64,000 nt of DNA, taken from Methylobacter sp. (GTDB taxonomy: Bacteria; Pseudomonadota; Gammaproteobacteria; Methylococcales; Methylomonadaceae). This document shows, piece after piece, positions 36,083 to 62,427 of the stretch (positions are counted from its first letter, which is position 1; each line of letters starts with the position of its first letter). The stretch covers positions 1 to 64,000 of the forward strand of contig NZ_SCTW01000044.1 in NCBI RefSeq assembly GCF_004322395.1. Direction: 5' to 3'. The translations under genes were made by a program, and so were the position numbers. The notes under the pieces are model-generated. The model had not been told where the DNA came from, made no database searches, and saw nothing but the letters and a program-made list of their open reading frames with translations.

Positions 36083-36733
36083 TTATTTGCGACGGAATCC
36101 TTTGGTATTGGAATAATTGTAACAATCATCTCCATTACATCCTGAATTAATGCTCGATACTGTAGGTGGTTTTTGCTCGAAATCGGGTGCCGGATTTCCC
36201 GTATTTTGCTGAAGACACTGGTTAATCAGTTCGCTTGGGCCGTTAATGCATTCATAGAATCTTGGCGTCAAATCAAGCTCCACAACTGTTTCAAAAGTAT
36301 CGTCACCAGCATAGATGTCGCTGCCGATGGCTGAAGTTCTTTTCACTCTTGCTCCACGTAGGTAAGCATTAAGATAAATCTGATAATTATCATGGCTGAC
36401 TTCCATATCCCCGACTGTGGTTTGGCCGCGCAATTGAATGCCATTAAGCTGCTCGGCCAAACTTCTGTAAGCATCCATTTTAGATGCTCTCATGGCCATT
36501 AGTTTAATTTGCGAGCGCGAATACCGATCGCTTTTTTCGACAGTGCCATAGCCTATGGCGCTTAAAGTTTTATACGGTAGGGACACAATCGGTGTGGGCG
36601 GCGCTTTTTGAGTCGAGCAAGCAGTCGTCAATAAGCTGATGACTAATCCCGCTATCGCCAGGGATGATAAGTATGCCCCAAGCCTGTTGGAAACAAGCGC
36701 AATAAATGCGGGCTTTAAGTGGTTAATTTTCAC
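36083..36733 (-). CDS. flgP: FlgP-like LPP20 lipoprotein
   Basis: 216 residues from GTG. A hydrophobic N-terminal segment ends in a lipobox LLTTAC (about Cys39). The LPP20 domain follows: GYGTVEKSDRYSRSQIKLMAMRASKMDAYRSLAEQLNGIQL and VELDLTPRFYECI. FlgP is an outer-membrane flagellar disk or H-ring-associated protein in Vibrio and Campylobacter. The Gln/Asn/Ser-rich C-terminal tail with cysteines (GCNGDDC) is unlike the core. First of flgP-flgT-fliW; AGGAG lies 6 bases before the GTG. Confidence 0.75.
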   Translation of the reverse strand: MKINHLKPAFIALVSNRLGAYLSSLAIAGLVISLLTTACSTQKAPPTPIVSLPYKTLSAIGYGTVEKSDRYSRSQIKLMAMRASKMDAYRSLAEQLNGIQLRGQTTVGDMEVSHDNYQIYLNAYLRGARVKRTSAIGSDIYAGDDTFETVVELDLTPRFYECINGPSELINQCLQQNTGNPAPDFEQKPPTVSSINSGCNGDDCYNYSNTKGFRRK

Positions 36734-39589: not shown

Positions 39590-42500
39590 GTGATCCATCA
39601 TATTAAGCGTGCAACGCGACATCTCATCTTCTGGTCATTAATTTCGGTAGCTGTCGGCTTGACCGGTGTACGGCTGTTATTATCAGGGATTGAACATTAT
39701 AAGGTTGATTTGGCGACCCACATCGGCGAATTGGTTGGCACGCCGGTAACCATAGGCCGCTTGGGTGCGAAAATGCGCGGCTTTAATCCTCAGCTGGTAT
39801 TAAAGGATATCGCCATTTCATCCCAAGCTGTCCCTGCCTGTCCCCCTTTGGGCGCTATGCATACAAACCCGCCCGCAGCGGATTTGTTATCCGCTTCTGT
39901 CTGCAATAACAAACCCGCTATCGAGTTTAACGAAATACGTCTGGGTATTAATGTGCTGGATATGCTGGTTAAACGGGATTTACTGTCATCGTCCTGGGTG
40001 ACCTTAGTGGGCGCCAAGCTCGCCATTAAACGGCAGCAGGATGGGAGTATTGTTATTGTTGGCTTAAAATCCAGCGATGGGCAGCCGCAATGGCTGTTGC
40101 AGGGAGGAAAATACGAAGTCCTGCAAAGCGAAATTAGCTGGCAGGATGAAACAAACCATAGCAGACCACTGTTGTTTAATGGAGTAGATCTAGCTATTCG
40201 CAATGATGGCGAGCGCCACAGGCTTAATATGCTGATCAAGTTGCCGAAAAAAGTCGGCGATACGCTAAGGGTGTCGGCAGATTTTGAAGGCAATGTTTTT
40301 GAGCCAGCGACCACTCAAGGGAGCATTTATATAGAAGGAAAAGCCGTTTTATTGTCTGAGTTGGCTGCCGGTTTTAGCTCCGTTCAGCCAGCGGTTTGTC
40401 TTAATTGCCGATGGCTGAGCGAAGCTGAAGCCGGGCGGCGGATAAATATCAATTCCGGCGCCGGCGATTTCAAAATCTGGGGCGATTGGAAGCAATCGCA
40501 ATTGGTATCTATGGATGTAGCGGCTCATATTAAAAAGCTGGCGCTGGTTCGGCAGGATAAGCAGGAGTTTTTCGTCAACGACCTGAATACCCGGCTTCGA
40601 TTGAGGGCGAATGATGTTGCCAACGATGCAGGCAAGCAGTGGCAATTCGATGTCAGCAACTTTTCCCTGGAAACCTTAGCTGGTCCGGAGCGTCTCGTTA
40701 AAAAATGGCCGGACGCCGTGTTTAGCGTTGCGGGTCAGCGCATGAATGATAATTCTTTATCTGAGGCGGCGCTGTTTGTCGAACAGCTTGATTTGCAGGA
40801 AGTGTCAGAATTGGCGCAGTTCTTCGTCCCGTTGCCTGATGAGCAGGACAAAATACTGGCGAAAGCCCAGTTAAAAGGAGCGTTGGAGAATCTTTCTTTG
40901 TTTGCCGATATCGATGCAAAAGCGATTGCAATTAACGGCAGGTTTACCAATATCAGTGTTGCTCCATTGTTGTCGGTTCCCGGTATAGAGAACTTGACCG
41001 GCCACATAAAGGGCAGTGAAAAGCAGGGTGCTATTACTTTTGCGACTAAAGACGCTGTGCTGGTTGCGCCGGACCTGTTCCGGGAATCCTTGCCGGTCCG
41101 CAGTCTTCAAGGTACGCTTGATTGGCTGCAAGCGAATGATCATTGGTCTGTATCGAGCCAGGCGATTGAATTGGATTCATTGAGCTTCCAAAGCAAAAGC
41201 CAGTTTCGTATCGATATTCCCGAAACGGACAAACCGATTTTTATGGATCTACAGAGTGTATTTGCCGGTGAGGACGCAAGCGAAGTCAAACATTATTTAC
41301 CGGTCGGCATTATGGACGAGGAAGTCGTCGCTTGGCTGGATCGCGCATTTGTTAGCGGACGCATGACCAACGGCGGCTTGTTGATTTACGGTAATCTGAA
41401 CGATTTTCCGTTTAACACAGCACCAGGTATTTTCGAGGCTGTATTTAATGGAGAGCAGTTCGATTTGTCATTCGATCCGGAATGGCCTCATATAACCGGC
41501 ATGAATGCCGAGGTCATGTTTTCGCAGGAAGGTCTCAAGGTTAATATTCTGCAAGGGCAATCCGGTATCGCCAGGGATGGTGTGTATGCCGCAAGTCCGC
41601 CGGGAGCGGGCGCGGCGATCGCCAGAGATAGTGCGCATGCTGCAAGCCAGTCGGGAGCTGGCGCGGCGAACGTGATCATTAAACAAGCCGAAGTTACTAT
41701 TCCAAATTTGAATGAAAGCAAACACGTACTGATTCAGGGCGATGCTGAAGGCGAAATCGATCAGGTTTTGGCGTATATGCAGCAGACGCCGCTAAGTTCA
41801 CCGGTGGATTCGTTGCTGGAGTCTATTACCCCGCAAGGAAATACTCAAGTAACACTGGATCTTAAAATTCCTCTGGTTGACGGAGCGCCAACCAAGGTCG
41901 ATGGAACGGCGCAGTTGAAAGACGCCAGACTGAACGTGAAATCGCTGGACTTGCCGGTCAGCAAGATTAACGGCAAACTCAAGTTCAATGAGCTGGGGGT
42001 TTATAGCGATACGATTCACGCTATGGCCTTGGGGCATCGTATAGAAATCAACATTGAAAGTTCGGATAGCCAAACCACAGTCAACGTGGAGGGAAATGTT
42101 GGAGTTGAGGATTTACAGAAACAATTCGACATGCCGTGGTGGAAAATCGCCCAAGGGTCGGCAGATTATCGGTTAAAGCTGGAGTTGCCGTATGGGGATG
42201 TTGCCCCTGAATTGGTGGTGGACTCGACGCTGTCCGGAGTATCGTTGGATTTACCCGAATCACTGGCCAAAACCCGGGAACAAAGTTTGCCTTTATTATT
42301 GAAGTTTAGCCTGGGCGATAAAGTGTTATTGCCGGTGCTGTTAAATTACGACAATAAACTGAAAGCGGCGATTCAGTTGGATACCGAAAAAAGATCCCTA
42401 TATTCAGGGCATGTTGTGGTGGGTAACGGTGAAGCTGCCCAGATCCAGGATGCAGGATTAAAGTTGGAGATCAACCGCGACCGCTTGGCTTTGCAAGACT

Positions 42501-43663
42501 GGTTAGGCTTGGCAACGGCTCAAGGCGCAGGCGATGGTGTTAAGGAACTAAAGATTCATAGCGCTCATGCTTTATGGAAGAAAACCGATATAGGTGGTTT
42601 CGATTTATCCCTAAAGCACGATGGCAACTATTGGACTGGGACATTAGCCAGTCCTCTCGCAAAGGGAAGCGTTCAGATACCTGCCGATTTTAAAAGCACT
42701 GACAGGATCAGTCTGGATATGGAATTATTGGATATTTCGGCGCTAAAGCAAGCGGCGCCGAAAGATACTTCGGCTCCGCAGATATTGTCGCCGGAGTTTA
42801 TGCCTTTATTGACGCTCACCAGTCAAAAAACGCTGTGGCAGTCGGTTGATCTAGGCCGGTTGTCCTTGAAAACCGAGCGCATACCGGGCGGCATGAATCT
42901 TGATCAGGTAGAGCTGATCGGAGAAAATCAAAAATTGGCCTTGTCGGGCGACTGGCGAGTAAGCGGCGAAAAAACGATAACGCATACCCAAGGCCATATA
43001 GAAGTCCCTCGTTTTGGACAATTGTTGACACAACTGGGCATTACCAAGGATATGACAGAAACCGATGCGGCCATTGATTTCATCGTCAATTGGAATGCGG
43101 CGCCGTATCAATTTTCACTGGAGGATTTGAACGGTCAAGTGGACGTTAAACTTAAAAACGGGCGCATCTTAAGTATAGAACCCGGATTCGGCCGGATACT
43201 GGGCATGCTGGCGCTGGCTCAGTGGATAAAGCGGGCGCAGCTCGACTTTAGCGATGTTTACCAGGAAGGTCTGACCTTTAACGGCATTAAAGGGCACTTT
43301 AACTTAGCGGACGGAATTGCATCGACTCATGACTTGGTCGTCGATGCCGTTCCGGCAAAAATCGCTATTAGCGGGGATACCGATCTTGTTAATCAATCTG
43401 TTGACCACATTGTCGATGTCACGCCTAAAAGTGCCGATGCCGTGCCTATTGCTGGTACAATTATGGGTAAGGTAGCGGCTTTGGTTGGACGGTCTTTAAC
43501 CGGCAAGGATCAGGAAGGGTTTTTCTTCGGTTCCCAGTATCTGGTAAAAGGCGCGTGGGGAAATGCAGAAATCATACCGATGCATAAAAATGACGGATTG
43601 TTGCAGAAAACCTGGAATGGTATTACCGACTTTCCATGGTTGCAGCAGCAAGAAGAACAATAA
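39590..43663 (+). CDS. yhdP: YhdP-family AsmA-like envelope protein with two in-frame repeats
   Basis: Very long bridge-like protein thought to carry phospholipids between inner and outer membranes. 1357 residues from GTG, with one N-terminal membrane helix (about 12-31, LIFWSLISVAVGLTGVRLLL), then periplasmic beta-strand repeats, and a C-terminal AsmA-like region (LSIEPGFGRILGMLALAQ ... FNGIKGHFNLADG ... AGTIMGKVAALVGRSLTGKD). Two 17-residue repeats (residues 660-676 and 677-693) are encoded by palindromic units also found in minC. A second insertion-like stretch lies near residues 85-112. Neighbours rng and nit match the enterobacterial order. Confidence 0.92.
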   Translation: MIHHIKRATRHLIFWSLISVAVGLTGVRLLLSGIEHYKVDLATHIGELVGTPVTIGRLGAKMRGFNPQLVLKDIAISSQAVPACPPLGAMHTNPPAADLLSASVCNNKPAIEFNEIRLGINVLDMLVKRDLLSSSWVTLVGAKLAIKRQQDGSIVIVGLKSSDGQPQWLLQGGKYEVLQSEISWQDETNHSRPLLFNGVDLAIRNDGERHRLNMLIKLPKKVGDTLRVSADFEGNVFEPATTQGSIYIEGKAVLLSELAAGFSSVQPAVCLNCRWLSEAEAGRRININSGAGDFKIWGDWKQSQLVSMDVAAHIKKLALVRQDKQEFFVNDLNTRLRLRANDVANDAGKQWQFDVSNFSLETLAGPERLVKKWPDAVFSVAGQRMNDNSLSEAALFVEQLDLQEVSELAQFFVPLPDEQDKILAKAQLKGALENLSLFADIDAKAIAINGRFTNISVAPLLSVPGIENLTGHIKGSEKQGAITFATKDAVLVAPDLFRESLPVRSLQGTLDWLQANDHWSVSSQAIELDSLSFQSKSQFRIDIPETDKPIFMDLQSVFAGEDASEVKHYLPVGIMDEEVVAWLDRAFVSGRMTNGGLLIYGNLNDFPFNTAPGIFEAVFNGEQFDLSFDPEWPHITGMNAEVMFSQEGLKVNILQGQSGIARDGVYAASPPGAGAAIARDSAHAASQSGAGAANVIIKQAEVTIPNLNESKHVLIQGDAEGEIDQVLAYMQQTPLSSPVDSLLESITPQGNTQVTLDLKIPLVDGAPTKVDGTAQLKDARLNVKSLDLPVSKINGKLKFNELGVYSDTIHAMALGHRIEINIESSDSQTTVNVEGNVGVEDLQKQFDMPWWKIAQGSADYRLKLELPYGDVAPELVVDSTLSGVSLDLPESLAKTREQSLPLLLKFSLGDKVLLPVLLNYDNKLKAAIQLDTEKRSLYSGHVVVGNGEAAQIQDAGLKLEINRDRLALQDWLGLATAQGAGDGVKELKIHSAHALWKKTDIGGFDLSLKHDGNYWTGTLASPLAKGSVQIPADFKSTDRISLDMELLDISALKQAAPKDTSAPQILSPEFMPLLTLTSQKTLWQSVDLGRLSLKTERIPGGMNLDQVELIGENQKLALSGDWRVSGEKTITHTQGHIEVPRFGQLLTQLGITKDMTETDAAIDFIVNWNAAPYQFSLEDLNGQVDVKLKNGRILSIEPGFGRILGMLALAQWIKRAQLDFSDVYQEGLTFNGIKGHFNLADGIASTHDLVVDAVPAKIAISGDTDLVNQSVDHIVDVTPKSADAVPIAGTIMGKVAALVGRSLTGKDQEGFFFGSQYLVKGAWGNAEIIPMHKNDGLLQKTWNGITDFPWLQQQEEQ
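41567..41668 (+). repeat. Two tandem copies of a 51-bp in-frame palindromic repeat in yhdP
   Basis: Copy 1 is 41567-41617 and copy 2 is 41618-41668. They encode IARDGVYAASPPGAGAA and IARDSAHAASQSGAGAA. Each holds a hairpin of the form GC(C/T)GC ... stem, loop CGGGA, stem ... GCGGC; the stems differ between copies by paired changes. A third copy is in minC at 61999-62049. Confidence 0.9.
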
Positions 43664-61596: not shown

Positions 61597-62427
61597 TTAA
61601 ATGTCTTTAATAATTAAAGTATGGTTTTGTAAATAGATCTGAACGGGCCGGTTAAAAATTGCAGTATTCAAATCTTCGCTGATCTTATAATTTCCCGCAA
61701 TCGAAATTAGCTCAGCCTGTAAGTCGGAACAAAAAATACGCGCTTCGGTATTGCCTTGAACTCCTGCCAGCGCCCGGCCTCTTAGCGAGCCGTAAACATG
61801 AATGTTGCCCTCGGCCAGAATCTCGGCTCCTGCGCTAACCTGAGCTAAAATGACCAAATCACCCGAAGCATAAATACGCTGGCCGGAACGGACAGGATTG
61901 GTAATCATGGTAGTGATTGCCGCAACAGTTTGCGGTTCAGGCATAGGCTCGGGTTCTGGAATTTGTTGCTTTGGGGGTGCTGAAGACGTCGCTGTGCTCG
62001 CCGCACCAGTTCCCGACTGGTTTGCGGCATACACACCATCCCTGGCGATATGGCCGGAATGTACAGGAATGCCTAAATCCAGGGCCTGTTGGTTTTGTTG
62101 TGCAACACCGCCGCGTATTCCTATCGGCAATAAACCCAGCTTACGGATGACGCGAGTAAGCTCAGTAACATCGATGTCGAGATCATGTTTATTCAGTTCC
62201 TGCAAGTCAAACACCAGCGGCGAATTTTTGAAAAACTCAGGGGCTTGATGGATTTTTTCCTGTAATTGCTGCTCGATAGTTATGACATCATTACCGGCTA
62301 AAACCAAAACAGGCACAGAGAAAGTGCTGCTTTTAAATTCCAGCACCGGCGAGTAATGAATGTTCTGTTGAGAGTCTGTTGACATCCGTGAAATCTGGTT
62401 AGTCAGGAGTTGAACTGATTCTAACAT
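61597..62427 (-). CDS. minC: Septum inhibitor MinC with an in-frame repeat in the linker
   Basis: 276 residues as the longest frame; ATG at 62385 (MSTDSQQNIHYSPVLEFKSSTFSVP) is an equally likely start. The N-terminal domain inhibits FtsZ; the C-terminal beta-helix (DLVILAQVSAGAEILAEGNIHVYGSLRGRALAGV) binds MinD. Between them the linker contains a 17-residue insert IARDGVYAANQSGTGAA (residues 127-143) encoded by a palindromic repeat also present twice in yhdP, plus a Pro/Glu-rich stretch (PEPEPMPEPQ). First of minC-minD-minE. Confidence 0.93.
   Translation of the reverse strand: MLESVQLLTNQISRMSTDSQQNIHYSPVLEFKSSTFSVPVLVLAGNDVITIEQQLQEKIHQAPEFFKNSPLVFDLQELNKHDLDIDVTELTRVIRKLGLLPIGIRGGVAQQNQQALDLGIPVHSGHIARDGVYAANQSGTGAASTATSSAPPKQQIPEPEPMPEPQTVAAITTMITNPVRSGQRIYASGDLVILAQVSAGAEILAEGNIHVYGSLRGRALAGVQGNTEARIFCSDLQAELISIAGNYKISEDLNTAIFNRPVQIYLQNHTLIIKDI
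61999..62049 (-). repeat. 51-bp in-frame palindromic repeat in minC
   Basis: On the minus strand it contains the hairpin GCCGC, AA, ACCAGT, loop CGGGA, ACTGGT, GCGGC. It matches the two units in yhdP (41567-41668) over the full 51 bases, with stem differences that keep pairing. Confidence 0.9.

Follow-up and report, generated by a model that had tools for sequence, protein, structure and literature searches.

The Methylobacter genome studied here contains a dispersed 51-bp unit, which we call type A. This unit is very probably a non-autonomous mobile palindromic element of Methylobacter (REP/RPE/MITE-like) that is able to live inside proteins. Its copies are dispersed and carry two covarying hairpins with loops that are largely GGA. 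They insert at WT/NNNG without target duplication, and their junctions are filled or empty in a patchy manner. Each insertion adds 51 bp, multiples of 51 bp, or shortened remnants; in genes, it adds 17 codons in frame.

Copies in the analyzed window

The window is the whole stretch of DNA analyzed, 64,000 nt of contig NZ_SCTW01000044.1 (GCF_004322395.1, Methylobacter sp.), and all window coordinates refer to it. The features are the following.

36654..36704, + strand: type A copy, decayed, near the start of the minus-strand ORF 36083-36733 (45.6 bits, E 2e-8)
39590..43663, + strand: host gene yhdP (PF13116)
41567..41617, + strand: type A copy 1 in yhdP, frame +0, peptide IARDGVYAASPPGAGAA (79.3 bits)
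41618..41668, + strand: type A copy 2 in yhdP, in tandem at exactly 51 bp, frame +0, peptide IARDSAHAASQSGAGAA (61.5 bits)
61597..62427, - strand: host gene minC (PF05209, PF03775)
61999..62049, - strand: type A copy in minC, interdomain linker, frame +0, peptide IARDGVYAANQSGTGAA (80.6 bits)

The original prediction, made on the window alone, had reported three units of exactly 51 bp in yhdP and minC. Their positions, strands, and peptides are as it described. Coordinates and Pfam domain bounds also agree with the tandem pair in yhdP and with the linker position in minC, where the insert consists of residues 127-143, between MinC_N (29-101) and MinC_C (174-273). All three units are real; however, the decayed fourth copy at 36654-36704 (+) had been overlooked. 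Matches to a degenerate pattern covering the unit's first half occur at three places in the window, whereas 100 dinucleotide shuffles gave none.

Copy number and distribution

A 23-base pattern with up to three mismatches found 29 near-exact places in the same genome and 0 for the reversed control. We then built a covariance model on 27 of 30 copies, leaving out L014, L016 (1-nt insertion), and L024 (decayed). With this model, the genome has at least 60 matches at E<=1, at least 53 of them at E<=0.001. Matches are present in all 23 genomes of the genus, with 2 to 93 apiece; these counts are lower bounds, as the 150 best candidates were scored per genome. Among other genera of the family, one of two genomes had matches (three). 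None of the 16 genomes from other families of the order gave a match at E<=0.001. Across the class, at least 7 of 369 genomes, including the one studied here, had a match at E<=1e-5 among the best 16 candidates per genome.

An exact-pattern scan of named genomes detected at least 113 stretches. Most of the matches listed are from Methylobacter, among them Ca. M. titanis, Ca. M. oryzae, and M. tundripaludum SV96 and OWC-G53F. Among the matches listed, a few belong to Methylovulum, Methyloglobulus morosus, and a Methylococcaceae MAG, and one array belongs to Alteromonadaceae bacterium Bs31. Viral contigs had no exact matches to the element. Searched against Rfam, neither the yhdP copies nor the Bs31 array gave a match at E<=5. 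The sequences are mainly draft assemblies, and many are MAGs. The covariance search across the genome and its relatives thus gave what the mobile-unit idea expected, many copies with covarying stems, well beyond yhdP and minC.

The collected scan contains 258 copies. We used the 245 with a score of at least 45, which omits old copies. They form 190 arrays, which gave 181 sites with 150-nt flanks, including L180-L219, picked for being genic. For the headline site counts, L180-L219 were dropped (181 to 166 sites) and orthologous sites were collapsed, leaving 82 unrelated sites.

Structure and coding capacity of the unit

In hairpin 1, positions 3-7 pair with 12-16 around an NGGA loop. In hairpin 2, positions 22-34 pair with 40-50 around a CGGGA loop, with an AA bulge. 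RNAalifold, unprompted, yields the same two-hairpin fold as our manual reading. The original prediction described one hairpin. Its CGGGA loop and paired stem changes hold, but it missed the hairpin at positions 3-16 with the NGGA loop. Paired cells amount to 95.4%, with two-sided changes in 10 of 16 pairs, and none of 500 shuffles, which ignore relatedness, was this high. Slid controls were much lower, although the comparison is biased toward the structure, which was read from the same sequences.

The loops are well conserved among 29 copies. In loop 1, position 8 is free (G in 21, A in 6, T in 2), followed by G9 (28/29), G10 (28/29), and A11 (29/29). Loop 2 shows G37 in 28/29, G38 in 27/29, and A39 in 27/29. 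At pair 4-15, 186 of 236 copies have a G.T wobble and none has A.C, and the remaining pairs have 107 GT versus 69 AC, counted over copies that are not independent. Since A.C never occurs at this pair, the element strand is the folding strand. The consensus has the ends ATCG and GGCG, and the end sequences ATCGCC and GCGGCG form no mutual inverted repeat. It is stop-free in all six frames, like 173 of the 245 copies. Its frame +0 peptide consists of 17 residues and is rich in Gly, Ala, and Ser.

The covariation had been taken as a sign of selection or mobility acting on the nucleic acid. It is real. Nevertheless, it is not proof of selection, since correction of one hairpin arm against the other gives the same pattern. 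Hairpin-templated mutation is known in general: one arm is copied from the other at replication. It is a possible source of the stem covariation in place of structural selection, although we lean away from it. The 245 copies comprise 210 distinct sequences, and two-sided changes are commonest at pairs 32-42, 34-40, and 29-45, as templating may produce. However, hairpin 1 and the loop GGA hardly change while stem 2 is variable, which still calls for some recognition constraint.

Target site, frame use, and tandem arrays

The element prefers the target WT^NNNG. At the 82 unrelated sites, position -1 is T in 80 and position -2 is A or T in 75, and 62 have G at +4. Coding sequence spans 34 of the 82 sites. 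This number is a floor because the codon-usage test overlooks true genes, such as dnaN and the epimerase gene. By frame, these sites are 20 in +0, 6 in -0, 5 in -1, 2 in -2, 1 in +1, and 0 in +2. The motif alone predicts 8.9, 7.7, 3.2, 5.8, 6.1, and 2.3, respectively. Frame +0 is thus over-used against the motif expectation (p 1.7e-4), with some expected values being small. The earlier proposal that length and frame would spare the host protein agrees with this frame use and with the 51-bp steps.

Of the 82 sites, 38 lie in a frame of 100 codons or more on each side, as do 848 of 2023 motif positions drawn at random (p 0.43). Since the two shares are similar, there is no sign of gene avoidance.

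Tandem copies lie exactly 51 apart in all 55 cases, in a set that includes the sites L180-L219, chosen as genic, and that leaves copies more than 56 apart unjoined. In a set with the same inclusion, adjacent copies share 45.1 of 51 positions versus 42.7 for random pairs. Neighbors are somewhat more alike than random copies, so local duplication contributes to the arrays. We also considered reinsertion at the left junction, which would be marked by a G at position 4. First copies have this G in 37/44 and downstream copies in 46/55, which gives no support.

Filled and empty sites in host genes

In this genome, Pfam identifies the hosts PurH, valyl-tRNA synthetase, RapA, the DNA polymerase III beta clamp (DnaN), YhdP, MinC, and a polysaccharide synthesis epimerase; one of the ten proteins queried had no Pfam match. 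We used the joined flanks as the query across the 23 genus genomes and then read the sequences, scoring remnants of at least 18 bp as filled. The filled sites were 9/22 in dnaN (13/22 empty), 8/22 in purH, 8/23 in valS, 8/21 in rapA, and 4/20 in minC. The purH gene of M. tundripaludum SV96 contains an insert.

In dnaN, purH, and rapA, filled and empty sites differ by exactly 51 bp in most cases, without target duplication. The exceptions are inserts of 102 and 63 bp (dnaN), 42 bp (purH), and 69 and 102 bp (rapA). In addition, purH of G002 holds a 15-bp remnant, scored as empty. The minC difference is 51 bp in two species and 66 and 93 bp in two others, where the unit is whole and the excess is unaligned flank. 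This junction has an exact empty site in G021 and is filled in G008, G009, and G012; several empty minC sites align poorly next to the junction. In valS, empty sites hold one variable codon (3 nt) and filled sites hold 21, 51, 54, 57, 72, or 153 bp. Four of the filled sites, at 54 or 57 nt, need a one-codon adjustment. The 21 bp of G009 valS are hairpin 1 alone. In valS of G009 and G008 (L164/L186, L172/L182), hairpin 2 (30 bp, 10 codons) was apparently lost exactly, leaving a 21-bp in-frame remnant.

The yhdP junction holds 102 bp in the genome studied. Of the 14 congeners read, 11 have it empty, and G020, G010, and G005 have 51, 42, and 75 bp there, respectively. Likewise, no protein match from 40 other family genomes spans YhdP residues 661-680; most matches stop at about 651-660 and restart at 681-700. 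YhdP and MinC therefore have clean in-frame empty homologues, and most relatives examined do not have these residues. Copies and empty sites across the genus support what was originally predicted: a structured, dispersed element that has entered unrelated proteins in frame.

How the filled state is distributed among species bears on a second alternative. The insertions may be old, spread and lost chiefly by homologous exchange of alleles between Methylobacter species, with little current transposition. We consider this a minority possibility, on a par with templated mutation. On the concatenated flank tree, the filled state changes 2 times in minC, 6 in purH, 6 in dnaN, 6 in valS, and 7 in rapA, and only minC lies clearly beneath shuffled labels (18/1000 as low). 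The minC flank tree requires a single change. Same-site copies of minC are nearly identical (50.5 of 51 versus 44.3 at random), and those of purH are also above random (47.4 versus 44.7); 0 of 300 random sets were as alike. The copies in valS and rapA are weakly more alike than random (11/300 and 15/300 random sets as alike), and the sequence classes of the rapA copies cut across the tree, as exchange would predict. On the other hand, filled alleles are ungrouped on the gene trees of dnaN (8 changes), purH (6), and rapA (6). The same-site dnaN copies are less alike than random pairs, and several are decayed, which fits old decayed copies. Finally, allele exchange is unable to generate 82 unrelated sites or a target motif.

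Related repeats

Type A has relatives in the same genome. One of them, type B, has one copy inside PolA; its recurring query range, 179-251, suggests a length of about 73 bp. Type C is a 51-bp repeat beginning ACYGCCAGGGATGGYGG, with one copy inside a GGDEF/EAL gene. Pfam confirms DNA polymerase I and a GGDEF/EAL protein as the respective hosts. In the GGDEF/EAL gene, type C adds exactly 51 bp (G000 loci L085, L078; L502-L542). Type B is apparently nested in type C in several species, with insert lengths divisible by three if one ambiguous base is counted. Another palindrome, GTAGGGGCGACCGG..CCGGTCGCCCCTAC or a close variant, is nested within the 51-bp element (L191, L302, L325). In G012 dnaN (L191), this nesting gives a total of 63 bp, and the frame is kept.

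Kin repeats with a two-hairpin layout are present elsewhere in the Gammaproteobacteria: in the genus g148, in Alteromonadaceae bacterium Bs31, and in genome G230. Like type A, they show a CCAGGGATGG-like hairpin followed by a GGGA-loop hairpin, often in tandem. The Bs31 array (L253:550-810) contains about five related units, mostly 52 bp apart, and its hairpin 1 is a perfect CCCCAGGGATGGGG. In the gammaproteobacterium G230, two kin hairpin repeats (L475:77-127, 320-370) each follow a similar stretch ending GATTTTAGCTGGAATGACCG.

In g148, we found 23 matches of 48-52 bp, of which 11 were 51 bp; these are match lengths, and the unit length may differ. Neighbor spacing is 52 or 53 in two arrays. 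None of the 23 matches lies in long frames (at least 100 codons to either side), compared with 474 of 1380 random positions; the matches include array neighbors, so they represent fewer than 23 independent sites. We had considered divisibility by three as the cause of genic location. This idea is weakened by the 11 of 23 g148 matches that are also 51 bp.

Proposed mechanism and mobilizing enzyme

The element may spread as a hairpin-bearing nucleic acid, with a trans-acting enzyme that would recognize it. Genic insertions would survive for two reasons: the length of 51 equals 3 x 17, and the peptide they encode is small and probably flexible. Local duplication would be at least part of the origin of the tandem arrays.

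As for the enzyme, a Y1 HUH transposase (RAYT/IS200-605-like) is our first guess. It is the weakest step of the proposal and somewhat likelier to be wrong than right. Type A has Y1-like traits: it inserts without duplicating its target and 3' of a short fixed sequence, and it has hairpins near both ends. The features of IS200/IS605-type elements are no target duplication, a short fixed 5' sequence, and subterminal hairpins. In contrast with this list, type A sites also have a fixed G at +4.

We made two checks for a single-strand (Y1/RAYT) transposase, locus linkage and orientation bias, and neither gave support. Y1_Tnp has 104 matches, distributed in 21 of the 23 genus genomes. No mobilizing gene was found by linkage: an element-like match was present at 1 of the 30 Y1_Tnp loci examined, and it is a type C-like relative. 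G010 has at least 85 element matches, yet it has one Y1_Tnp match, which is partial. Next to this match, at L352:1980-2090, a type C-like double hairpin lies between the inverted repeat AGACCTTCCAGGTTTT / AAAACCTGGAAGGTCT. Orientation relative to the leading strand, assigned by GC skew in M. tundripaludum, was 10 versus 11, without bias, in a small sample counted by hand. This count omits one tandem neighbor and includes two matches near the skew switch and type A relatives.

The same sites are occupied in distant species; on species or gene trees, each site requires 5-8 changes (1-2 for minC). The motif alone does not explain this occupancy. One bolder reading, which we regard as rather unlikely, treats these junctions as reusable docking sites. 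A two-hairpin cassette of 51 bp would enter and leave the same codon junctions exactly, without duplication, in dnaN, valS, purH, rapA, minC, and yhdP. The process would be site-specific recombination or RNA- or ssDNA-templated, tied to no known transposase, and species would switch 17-residue peptides of core proteins on and off.

A role as RNA and other readings

The element could instead act as RNA, its GGA loops being a putative two-site landing pad for CsrA/RsmA in the mRNA, which would preserve the structure. We judge this quite improbable. CsrA prefers ANGGA in hairpin loops, and type A resembles CsrA/RsmA-binding RNA in having GGA in the hairpin loops, at two putative sites. Hairpin 1 reads C-A-N-GGA-T-G, GGA is nearly fixed in both loops of the 29 copies, and the element strand is the folding strand, as pair 4-15 indicates. 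The csrA gene is present in 23/23 genus genomes; this is weak evidence because csrA is common in Gammaproteobacteria. However, 13 of the 34 coding-spanning sites are in minus frames, where the mRNA bears the opposite strand. Moreover, the loop conservation may reflect young copies, as the scan kept well-conserved ones, or recognition by the mobilizing enzyme.

A further reading, in which the repeats would be ancestral protein sequence or a repeat at the protein level, has practically no chance of being right. Nothing beyond the similarity of the copies' peptides favors it. The proteins that contain copies are unrelated to one another, the copies occur in either orientation and in five reading frames, and some sites have no frame that spans them. 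The exact empty sites in congeners led us to reject this reading.

Significance

With the mobile palindromic element as our preferred reading, the few known cases of palindromes invading proteins in frame gain one in a free-living group with cultured members (M. tundripaludum). Methylobacter is a methane-eating bacterium, and its host proteins bear an extra 17-residue peptide that is absent in many relatives. Many of the genomes hold dozens of copies, several of which lie in core genes (replication, translation), and other congeners have empty orthologues. Hence, two questions can be addressed now: how the palindrome moves, and how proteins such as the sliding clamp tolerate an insert of 17 residues. 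The contrast with g148 (0/23 in long frames) raises the question of what permits the Methylobacter unit in genes. A length divisible by three would be a candidate for this permissive factor, though one weakened by the 51-bp matches in g148.

Comparison with known systems

RPEs and intragenic REPs are already known, so in-frame palindromes are a known phenomenon. For this family, its two-hairpin form, its target, and the re-occupation of its sites, we found no prior description in the open-licence papers searched. None was found for methanotrophs either, in line with the original prediction.

The likeness to Rickettsia palindromic elements noted earlier is confirmed, without identity: in-frame insertion is shared, and length and hairpin layout differ. 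In the cited descriptions, RPEs are dispersed palindromes located in frame in conserved proteins and also in intergenic regions (PMC2229807, PMC10969869), with 105-146 bp and terminal inverted repeats (PMC2229807). Type A is likewise in frame inside conserved protein genes. By those descriptions, it differs in being 51 bp long, in forming two separate hairpins, and in having a gammaproteobacterial host.

The REP/RAYT system consists of short hairpin repeats, and the cited account places some within DNA-repair, polymerase, and tRNA-synthetase genes, including a REP that two Xanthomonas species have at roughly the same position of recB (PMC3733652). Type A is also a short hairpin repeat found in polymerase-subunit and tRNA-synthetase genes. 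The GTAG/CGTC REPs, as described there, have 20-40 bp, carry a GTAG or CGTC tag at one end, and are mostly intergenic (PMC3733652). Unlike these, type A has the ends ATCG..GGCG and two hairpins, and no gene avoidance was seen.

MITEs are described as small, non-autonomous, and dispersed, some with open frames fused in frame; they end in terminal inverted repeats, and in many of them the target is duplicated (PMC2229807). In contrast to that description, type A has no terminal inverted repeats and, from filled versus empty sites, no target duplication. Nevertheless, it shares with MITEs a small size, non-autonomy, and dispersal.
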